A stretch of 64,000 nucleotides of DNA from Peteryoungia ipomoeae. GTDB lineage: Bacteria; Pseudomonadota; Alphaproteobacteria; Rhizobiales; Rhizobiaceae. Positions 903 to 3,289 of this stretch are shown here, piece by piece; the first letter of the stretch is position 1; the number at the start of each line of letters is the position of its first letter. A program made the position numbers and the translations under genes. Below the pieces are notes generated by a model. That model was given only the letters and a program-made list of their open reading frames with translations. It made no database searches and was not told where the DNA came from. The stretch spans positions 62,001 to 126,000 of the forward strand of contig NZ_STGV01000003.1 in the NCBI RefSeq assembly GCF_004912165.1. The letters are read 5' to 3'.

Positions 903-1247
903 TTGGAGCCTGAGGGAAATTTCCTGAAAACCGTTCTTGTAACCGACGCAGACGACGAGACGCTGATCACCGCGGACCTCGGCGACGTGCTTTTGGTGGA
1001 ACTCGAAGAGAACCCCACCACCGGCTATCGCTGGGAGCTGACAGAAAAGGGGGATCTGCCACTTGTCACATCCGGTTTCACCCCGCCGGCCGACACGGCC
1101 CCGGGGGCGGGCGGCCTTCGCCGATTTTCCTTCGATGCCGACACGGCAGTGGAGCATCGGCTGATCTTCCGGCTCCAGCGCGCATGGGAAAGGCCGGATC
1201 AGTTCATCAAATCGTTCAAGGTGATCGTTCGCGTTCGTGACAACTAG
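903..1247 (+). CDS. Chagasin-type (I42) cysteine protease inhibitor
   Basis: Small all-beta protein of about 114 residues with the three loops of the chagasin/I42 family: NPTTGYRW (residues 37-44, the L2 loop that enters the active site), GAGG near 68-71 in the mobile L4 loop, and RAWERP (93-98) at the L6 position. Family members block papain-like C1 proteases tightly. It lies directly upstream of a C1 protease, 16 bp from that gene's ATG, so protease and inhibitor are probably co-transcribed. No signal peptide is visible, unlike many bacterial inhibitors of this family. The start is uncertain: TTG at 903 lacks a clear ribosome site and no ATG or GTG lies nearby, so a nearby TTG or CTG start should be considered. 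Confidence 0.85.
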   Translation: MEPEGNFLKTVLVTDADDETLITADLGDVLLVELEENPTTGYRWELTEKGDLPLVTSGFTPPADTAPGAGGLRRFSFDADTAVEHRLIFRLQRAWERPDQFIKSFKVIVRVRDN

Positions 1248-1263
1248 CTCGGGAGGAGCTGAC

Positions 1264-2661
1264 ATGGATCGAGACTTGCTGGAACAGGTGCTACGGGACA
1301 ATGCGGCAGCCGAGGTGACCTGGGAGGCCGGGGAAACGTCGATGCTCGCGCTCAGCGAGGAAGAGCGGCAATTGCGGCTCGGCTGCCTTGACGACCCGGC
1401 GGACATGACGCTCGACAAGCGCATCGAGGTGGCTGAAGCCAATCTCGCCAAGCAGGGTCTTGGCGACGGGACCCTGCCGCAGACGATCGACTGGCGCAGC
1501 ATCGGCGGCAACAATTTCATCAGCCCGATCAGAGATCAGGGCAATTGCGGGTCTTGTGTCGCCTTCGGCACCAATGCCATGGTCGATGCGGCGATGCGCA
1601 TTGCGGCCAACCTGCCGATGAATGCACCCAATGCCTCGACCCTGCAGGACCTTTCGGAGGCGCAGCTGTTCTACTGCGGCGGCGGGCTTTGCTCGACCGG
1701 CTGGTACATCAGTGCCGCGCTCAACTATCTGAGCGGCACCGGCGTGGTTCCGGCGTCGAACTACCCGTATACGGCGGGCCAGCAGGCCTGCAACCTGCCA
1801 ACGAACTGGCAAAGCCTGATCACCAAGATCGCCGGTTACGACTATCTCAACGCCGCACAGGCGATGAAGCAGTATCTGGTGGCCAGCGGCCCGCTGACGG
1901 CGGCCTTCACCGTCTATGAGGACTTCCACGCCTACAAGAGCGGCGTCTACCGATGGAACGGCAAGGCAAAGCGCGTTGGCGGCCATGCCATCTGCATTGT
2001 CGGATACGACGACACGAAATCCGCCTGGCTCTGCAAGAACAGCTGGGGCACCGGCTGGGGGATGCAGGGCTATTTCTACATCGGCTACGGCCAGTGCGGG
2101 ATCGATGCCTCGATGTGGGGCGTCAATGCCTTCCAGACGATCTACCCCTTCCCGCCGGGCGGACAGACCTATACGCTCTCGCTCGACAGCAGCGGTGACG
2201 CCACCTGGTCGCCGCATGACCCCAACACCTATGTCGGCTGGCTTCAGGGGGACAGTCTGAAGATCACGGCCGCGTTCAACCTCAATCCGAACGTCACGCC
2301 GCTGCCGCCGGCCTCCAGCTATAACGGGCTCAGCCTCGGCGCGGTCAGCCGCGGCAATACGGCTGGCGTCAGCAGCCTGATGTCGAGCATCCAGGCGCTG
2401 ACCGGATCGACCGGCGTGCCGGTGGGGACAGGCGTGAGCTTAGGGGCTGCTGCCAATGCGGCGATCTTCTACAATGCCACGCCGAGCACCCTCACCTTGC
2501 CGATCACCCTGCAACCCTCGACGCGCGGCGCATTGAGCGGGCTGAACTATGCCTGGACCCTGACCTACAACGCCGCCAACACCGTGATCGGCAACCAGCG
2601 TCAGGTGATGATCGGCGTCGGCTACGGCTATCAGCTGAGTGCCGCGATCAACCAGAGCTGA
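1264..2661 (+). CDS. Papain-like C1 cysteine protease with C-terminal accessory domain
   Basis: 465 residues starting at the ATG with SD GGGAGGAG at 1251-1258. The catalytic set of C1 peptidases is complete: oxyanion Gln92 and nucleophile Cys98 in DQGNCGSCVAFG, His241 in VGGHAICIVGYDD, and Asn259 in KNSWGTGWGMQGYF. Residues 1-80 form an acidic leader, possibly a short propeptide, ending at IDWRS, the usual N-terminus of mature papain folds. Residues about 300-465 are a separate beta-rich domain (WSPHDPN, GWLQGD, FNLNPNV, TRGAL, GVGYGY) that recurs as the free-standing protein encoded just downstream. I see no Sec or Tat signal and no membrane segment, so it may act in the cytoplasm or be exported by an unrecognised route. 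It is flanked upstream by its probable inhibitor. Confidence 0.9.
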   Translation: MDRDLLEQVLRDNAAAEVTWEAGETSMLALSEEERQLRLGCLDDPADMTLDKRIEVAEANLAKQGLGDGTLPQTIDWRSIGGNNFISPIRDQGNCGSCVAFGTNAMVDAAMRIAANLPMNAPNASTLQDLSEAQLFYCGGGLCSTGWYISAALNYLSGTGVVPASNYPYTAGQQACNLPTNWQSLITKIAGYDYLNAAQAMKQYLVASGPLTAAFTVYEDFHAYKSGVYRWNGKAKRVGGHAICIVGYDDTKSAWLCKNSWGTGWGMQGYFYIGYGQCGIDASMWGVNAFQTIYPFPPGGQTYTLSLDSSGDATWSPHDPNTYVGWLQGDSLKITAAFNLNPNVTPLPPASSYNGLSLGAVSRGNTAGVSSLMSSIQALTGSTGVPVGTGVSLGAAANAAIFYNATPSTLTLPITLQPSTRGALSGLNYAWTLTYNAANTVIGNQRQVMIGVGYGYQLSAAINQS

Positions 2662-2670
2662 CATGGGTGA

Positions 2671-2707
2671 AAGACAAGATCCGGGGCGTGAAAGCCCCTC
2701 TTGTCTT
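2671..2707 (+). promoter_or_regulatory. Intercistronic stem-loop
   Basis: Outer arms AAGACAAGA (2671-2679) and TCTTGTCTT (2699-2707) pair perfectly over 9 bp. The inner arms GGGGC and GCCCC pair around a GTGAAA loop, with a 3-nt bulge on the 5' side. There is no U-tract directly after the stem, so it is more likely an mRNA-stability or partial-termination element between the protease and its partner-domain gene than a full terminator. Confidence 0.55.
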
Positions 2708-2755
2708 CCATCTTGCGCGAGACCTGCAAACCCAAGAGCAAGGGGAGAATGACGC

Positions 2756-3289
2756 ATGGACTATCATCTGACACTTCCCAAGGGGCTCATCACCCTGCGC
2801 AACGGCATCTATCAGGGCAGCCACACAGAGGCGGTCTGGTCGCCCTTCAATCCGAACGAGACCGGCGGATGGCAGAATGGCGACACGCTGGCCGTCGTCT
2901 GCTCGTTCAACCTCAACCCCAACGTCAATCCGAAACCGCCCGCCAGCCAGTATGCCGGCCTGTGCGCCGGCGCCTGCAACACGACCAATCAGGGTGCCAT
3001 CAACAGCCTGATCAATCAGGCAAAGACGCTGCCCCTGCCGAGCCCGGGCACACTTTTGGGCAATGGCATCAGCACGGCGACCAGTTCACCGCCGGCAACC
3101 GCCGTGTTCTACAATTGCGTTGCCACGACCGGCACCTTCGCGCTGCAGCCGACGAACCGCGGCACGCTGACAAATTATGTCTATCGCTACGTCATGACCT
3201 TCAACGGCAGCAATACCGTGGCGAACGGCAATCAGGTCGAGATCGTCTTCGGTTACGGCGATCCGATGGATAGCGAAGTCGATTCCTGA
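2756..3289 (+). CDS. Free-standing homologue of the upstream protease's C-terminal domain
   Basis: 177 residues; ATG preceded by AGGGGAG at a spacing of about 8. The whole protein matches the last 160 residues of the C1 protease upstream: W-SP-NPN, GWQNGD, FNLNPNV with PPAS-Y, AVFYN, LQPTNRGTL, NTV--GNQV and FGYG occur in the same order and spacing. It has no signal peptide, and Cys residues are few and not in metal-binding patterns. I do not recognise the domain family. The layout suggests it works with the protease, for example as a binding partner, scaffold or decoy, but this is inference. Co-transcription with the protease is likely because only 94 bp, holding a stem-loop, separates them. 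Confidence 0.75.
   Translation: MDYHLTLPKGLITLRNGIYQGSHTEAVWSPFNPNETGGWQNGDTLAVVCSFNLNPNVNPKPPASQYAGLCAGACNTTNQGAINSLINQAKTLPLPSPGTLLGNGISTATSSPPATAVFYNCVATTGTFALQPTNRGTLTNYVYRYVMTFNGSNTVANGNQVEIVFGYGDPMDSEVDS

Follow-up and report, generated by a model that had tools for sequence, protein, structure and literature searches.

Why would a bacterium encode a papain-type protease with no recognizable export leader next to a chagasin-like protein and a second, separate copy of the C-terminal domain that the protease itself carries? This question is raised by a cassette at positions 903–3289 of a 64,000-nucleotide stretch of Peteryoungia ipomoeae DNA (RefSeq assembly GCF_004912165.1, contig NZ_STGV01000003.1, forward-strand positions 62,001 to 126,000; hereafter the window). 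The cassette consists of three adjacent, co-oriented plus-strand open reading frames (ORFs), encoding an I42 (chagasin-family) protein, a C1A protease and a free-standing protein that we term D after the domain it shares with the protease. An earlier note, made from the sequence alone, had described three such genes, and both the ORFs and the Pfam profiles of the first two bear it out. Our survey revealed that the pairing of I42 with C1 genes is real and general, recurring across phyla far above chance, and that it follows the lack of a leader on the C1 protease. We tentatively read the cassette as encoding a cytoplasmically stored, doubly caged and targeted protease that acts after release, a reading in which our confidence is a little short of even.

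Among 398 Pseudomonadota genomes, I42 was found in 29, C1 in 19 and both in four. In three of these four, the I42 and C1 domains lie 245, 430 and 1203 bp apart on the same strand; in the fourth (G160), whose C1 match is weak (21.7 bits), a long distance separates them. Random placement would yield 0.01 pairs within 5 kb in this set. Across 238 Bacteroidota genomes, 14 of the 29 I42 matches lie at most 1.2 kb from a C1 match, all co-oriented, against 0.12 expected; owing to relatedness between genomes, these Poisson expectations make the excess look too strong. Furthermore, the plasmid search gave two close proteases at E 1e-30, one on a Deinococcus and one on a Streptomyces plasmid, and in each case an annotated I42 gene lies one or two genes downstream. 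Such a search for genomic co-occurrence had been proposed in the earlier note, and the leaderless protease beside a co-encoded chagasin-family protein that it described is indeed a recurrent arrangement, although most I42 genes have no C1 gene nearby. A literature search of open-licence papers found none on bacterial C1–I42 gene pairs. As a separate observation, ten Bacteroidota loci (L094–L100, L105, L106 and L108) form a second class of I42–C1 pairs, in which the I42 protein is apparently exported or lipid-anchored; these are probably envelope pairs.

To relate pairing to the protease N-terminus, we took all 14 cellular C1 matches above 100 bits from the plasmid, Pseudomonadota and Bacteroidota searches. 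Nine lack a hydrophobic N-terminus, and eight of the nine have an adjacent I42 gene (the window, Deinococcus, Streptomyces, G449, G810 twice, G922 and G717), compared with one (G924) of the five that possess such an N-terminus. The I42 gene of G922 was detected only by a custom profile (19.7 bits), and is a near-copy of a G810 gene that Pfam finds. Papain-family C1 proteases also occur on IMG/VR contigs classed as viral (L009–L041), where none of the 33 loci with a C1 relative has an I42 match and four of the six proteases scored for a leader have none. Therefore, a leaderless C1 protease alone does not guarantee an I42 partner.

In the window, the open frames span only 116 (I42), 478 (protease) and 178 (gene 3) residues and are closed just upstream by in-frame stops; thus a signal peptide cannot be gained by moving the start of any of the three proteins. 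Over 13-residue stretches close to the N-terminus, hydropathy peaks at 0.52 in the protease and at 1.03 in the I42 protein, leaders being called here by a hydropathy rule and the open-frame check rather than by SignalP. Within that rule, the absence of an obvious export signal reported earlier holds, and a signal peptide under a revised protease start, which was to weaken the module interpretation, is excluded by the upstream stops.

The I42 gene (903..1247, plus strand) has an uncertain start, either TTG 903 or CTG 924, the latter preceded by GAGGGA (read by eye). Its product matches PF09394 at 61.9 bits (cut-off 27.2, E 7e-17), and its best solved relative is 2wgn (E 5e-8), with chagasin at E 4e-7. 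I42 inhibitors carry the loop motifs NPTTG, G-G-G and RPW. The window's protein keeps NPTTGYRW and GAGG and has RAW in place of RPW, at positions that we take to be those of the three chagasin loops. Considering its family and the recurrent gene pairing, this protein likely blocks the neighboring protease in the producer's cytoplasm.

The protease gene (1264..2661, plus strand) encodes a C1A papain-family protein of 465 residues, which matches PF00112 (Peptidase_C1) at 153.7 bits (cut-off 20.7, E 9.8e-45). This is the sole family above cut-off in the protein; neither C10 nor C47 was matched. A start at ATG 1264, closely preceded by GGAGGAG, fits the catalytic-residue numbering; the ORF called mechanically begins at GTG 1237. 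The four residues previously named as catalytic, Gln92, Cys98, His241 and Asn259, proved invariant in 80 aligned proteins (80 of the 120 listed relatives, the window's own included). The AlphaFold2 model has a mean predicted local distance difference test score (pLDDT) of 87.9, with 94–97 for residues 1–60 and 73 for residues 61–70, and its nine best-ranked structural matches, all proenzymes by title, align from model residue 1–6. The first ~60 residues likely fold like a procathepsin propeptide, making the protease a predicted zymogen, a point absent from the earlier note, which named only protease, inhibitor and shared domain. In plus-strand coordinates, the predicted propeptide (residues 1–70) occupies 1264..1473, the catalytic domain (residues 71–283, the extent of the Pfam match) 1474..2112, and the D domain (residues 301–465) 2164..2658.

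Gene 3 (2756..3289, plus strand) encodes the free-standing D protein of 177 residues. It shares 40% identity with the protease C-terminus over 158 residues (E 1e-34 in that single comparison), and the D profile scores the protease domain at 129 bits, so gene 3 is a free copy of that domain, as the earlier note had it. No Pfam family matched gene 3 up to E 1, and none rose above noise in 37 aligned D members. Likewise up to E 1, ricin-B (beta-trefoil lectin) matched neither D nor the protease, and the PixA/AidA inclusion-body family PF12306 was not among the matches of the 37 D proteins. A search confined to similar lengths found 36 D relatives. The model of the free D protein (pLDDT 89.5) has no good structural match, SO1698 and PixA being weak and tied. 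D thus forms a small family that has no name and, although its structure is confidently predicted, no clear known fold. Among the 80 of 120 listed proteins that were scanned, 11 proteins match FG-GAP repeats, four ricin-B lectins, four the fungal fucose lectin and one hemopexin; among the paired proteases, DUF346 repeats score just above cut-off in G449 and in one G810 protease, and a fungal lectin scores below cut-off in G717. Related proteases thus keep the putatively caged core and swap the C-terminal domain, often with a lectin or propeller in D's place, and mainly because of this shared position D is probably a binding domain.

The place of D in the cassette is less general than that of the pair. 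Eight of the 120 listed proteins, the window's own included, match the protease over at least 98% of its length and have the same architecture. Of the other seven D-type proteases, five come from a contig equal in size to that of a D protein (3751/3752, 76012, 3156, 3304 and 31127), which suggests that each shares one contig with a D protein. The D profile matched nothing in the other I42–C1 loci examined, where the earlier note had proposed to look for it, and profile searches of loci L003, L004 and L005 gave neither C1 nor I42 next to D. The three-part module proposed in that note therefore stands as far as D possibly accompanies proteases of the same architecture, and is not general, since D also occurs without either partner. 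D is alone in the Anaerolineae locus L005. Locus L004, of a Bacteroidales metagenome-assembled genome, carries two tandem D genes (2167–2778 and 3157–3939) with no protease or inhibitor beside them. In Pseudoalteromonas sp. P1-9 (L003, 6225–8528), a 767-residue protein combines two similar N-terminal repeats, a part resembling phosphatidylinositol-specific phospholipase C (PI-PLC; E 2e-5) and a terminal D; its gene lies downstream of ParA/ParB-like genes (hand-read) and is perhaps plasmid-borne.

These features enable us to propose a putative model. The protease would be synthesized in the cytoplasm, the propeptide predicted from the model shielding its active site, and any prematurely activated molecule would be trapped by the I42 protein, as its family and recurrent gene pairing suggest. 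Both the protease-borne D domain and free D may bind the same target surface, probably a glycan or lipid head group, given that lectins or propellers occupy this slot in relatives and that D is elsewhere joined to a PLC-like protein. Once the cell lyses, or through a non-Sec route, the protease would be diluted away from its inhibitor, lose its propeptide and act outside, plausibly, if speculatively, on a predator or competitor.

Several points weigh against this reading. For the propeptide, the high confidence of the model may reflect zymogen structures that the predictor had learned. No C1 match lies within 5 kb of 26 of the 29 Pseudomonadota and 15 of the 29 Bacteroidota I42 matches, no I42 was found for the leaderless protease G797, and the paired leaderless cases shrink to about five independent ones because G810/G922 and G810/G717 are near-copies. 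An I42 protein on a contig of matching length was found for only one of the remaining D-type proteases (3751) and for none of the other six, in a comparison of limited sensitivity. The binding role of D is drawn solely from its position, and its fold matches nothing clearly. Moreover, the type VI secretion sheath protein TssC (PF05943) is absent from the genome, with the control matched, and no release route was found (type I and type IV secretion systems were not searched for); the search for the PF06841 tube family, in which no control matched, is uninformative. The evidence gathered here does not single out a toxin role.

An alternative in which the protease never leaves the cell, unlikely in our estimate, is that of an intracellular defense or suicide protease, held by I42 in the cytoplasm and let loose on host-cell proteins of the producer itself upon infection or stress. 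Its appeal lies in the neighbors of other pairs. On the Deinococcus aetherius plasmid pDAETH-2 (L007, 5938–12816), the C1 and I42 genes are directly followed by two annotated caspase-family genes; a TIR-domain gene (E 6.6e-21; L161, 3759–4790) is convergent with the adjacent G717 protease–I42 pair; and in G413 (L071, 406–2508, and the same place in L078), a helix-turn-helix gene precedes a gene for an IrrE-like M78 peptidase fused to I42 and then a C1 gene. The G413 fusion is in itself a sensor-like protease carrying a presumed inhibitor of the next gene's protease. In the window, however, the neighbors msrB and recQ are ordinary (hand-read), the PADLOC anti-phage defense models matched none of the three cassette proteins up to E 1, and the predicted propeptide and the lectin-like or D tail suit an enzyme acting outside. 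A digestive or competition enzyme leaving the living cell with free D by a dedicated non-Sec route, while I42 shields the cytoplasm beforehand, would suit the lack of a Sec leader and the C-terminal binding domains common in related proteases; the absence of TssC speaks against it, and we regard it as quite improbable.

Release of a stored, caged and targeted protease, the reading we prefer, has partial precedents. In the C10 and C47 pairs SpeB–Spi, staphopain–staphostatin and Bacteroides fragilis Bfp–Bfi, as described in excerpts of PMC2873492, the gene of a cysteine protease zymogen stands beside that of a small dedicated inhibitor, as protease and inhibitor genes adjoin in the cassette; those pairs belong to other peptidase and inhibitor families and, in the excerpts, include no third domain gene. 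Bfp proteases have lipoprotein leaders there, unlike the cassette protease and I42 protein under the hydropathy rule. In Bacillus subtilis Isp1–IPI, an intracellular subtilisin is held by a small immunoglobulin (Ig)-like protein, the genes being unlinked and the intracellular location of IPI doubted (PMC3901451, in excerpt). Its protease is of another kind and its inhibitor is unrelated to I42, but the system offers a precedent for caging a protease inside the cell.

Marasmius oreades agglutinin (MOA) and other fungal chimerolectins similarly join a papain-like protease to a surface-binding domain, binding being probable for D (PMC4764322 and PMC8244254, in part). A 2026 paper on CCTX2 mentions mushroom nematotoxins that are cytoplasmic and treats the lectin part of MOA as its binding half (PMC13324453, in excerpt). 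MOA is fungal, with a known lectin and a calcium-dependent protease, and the excerpts on it mention no inhibitor gene or propeptide. It is conceivable, if rather doubtful, that the cassette is a bacterial counterpart of this defense: a cytoplasmic booby-trap papain protease caged by propeptide and I42, aimed by D, a new family of surface-binding domain which is also released alone, and freed once the cell is broken open by a predator or rival; bacteria would then retain the caged core and exchange the domain that aims it. Cwp84 of Clostridioides difficile, which combines a C1A protease and a lectin-like domain (cited in PMC10380794), is a surface-layer protein for which the cited excerpt gives no I42 pairing. 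Judging from these partial sources, protease–inhibitor gene pairs (C10, C47) and papain–lectin proteins (fungi, C. difficile) are already known, and what is new is the C1–I42 variant of the pair and one unnamed domain family, D.

Chagasin and the other I42 inhibitors (ICP) share the family of the cassette protein by profile, and their three loop motifs are largely kept in it; the best-known members come from parasites or are bacterial lipoproteins that are exported and have no C1 gene next to them, unlike the cassette I42. For bacterial chagasin-family proteins, gene neighborhood now names partners, co-oriented C1 proteases in several phyla and above all leaderless ones, and each I42–C1 pair is testable with two purified proteins.

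The cassette is sparse and strain-specific. Gene 3 matched one of 100 genomes, its own (59 of the other 99 are of the same genus), the protease core at E 1e-40 matched one of 398 Pseudomonadota genomes, again its own, and within ~1.5 kb on each side of recQ none of 20 congeners holds cassette DNA. Ordinary intracellular protein turnover, in which a cysteine protease under regulation uses D to bind substrates or partners, fits three leaderless proteins encoded by compact, co-oriented genes, but this sparse distribution makes it very unlikely. An NCBIfam search of the cassette proteins gave no match, and the base composition of the cassette is not distinctive. An msrB-like end (1–270, read by hand) and recQ (from 3453) flank the cassette; the distance from msrB end to recQ is ~300 bp in congener G040 against ~3.2 kb in the window. 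Ahead of the cassette, 366–691 resembles a fragment of an HxlR-type regulator (hand-read), within which 421–612 matches at 72% the DNA upstream of recQ in congener G017. In keeping with a Rhizobiaceae-like host, recQ shares 77–78% identity with copies from plasmid records of Allorhizobium, Rhizobium and Sinorhizobium, and most matches of the flanking DNA are to records of the latter two genera.
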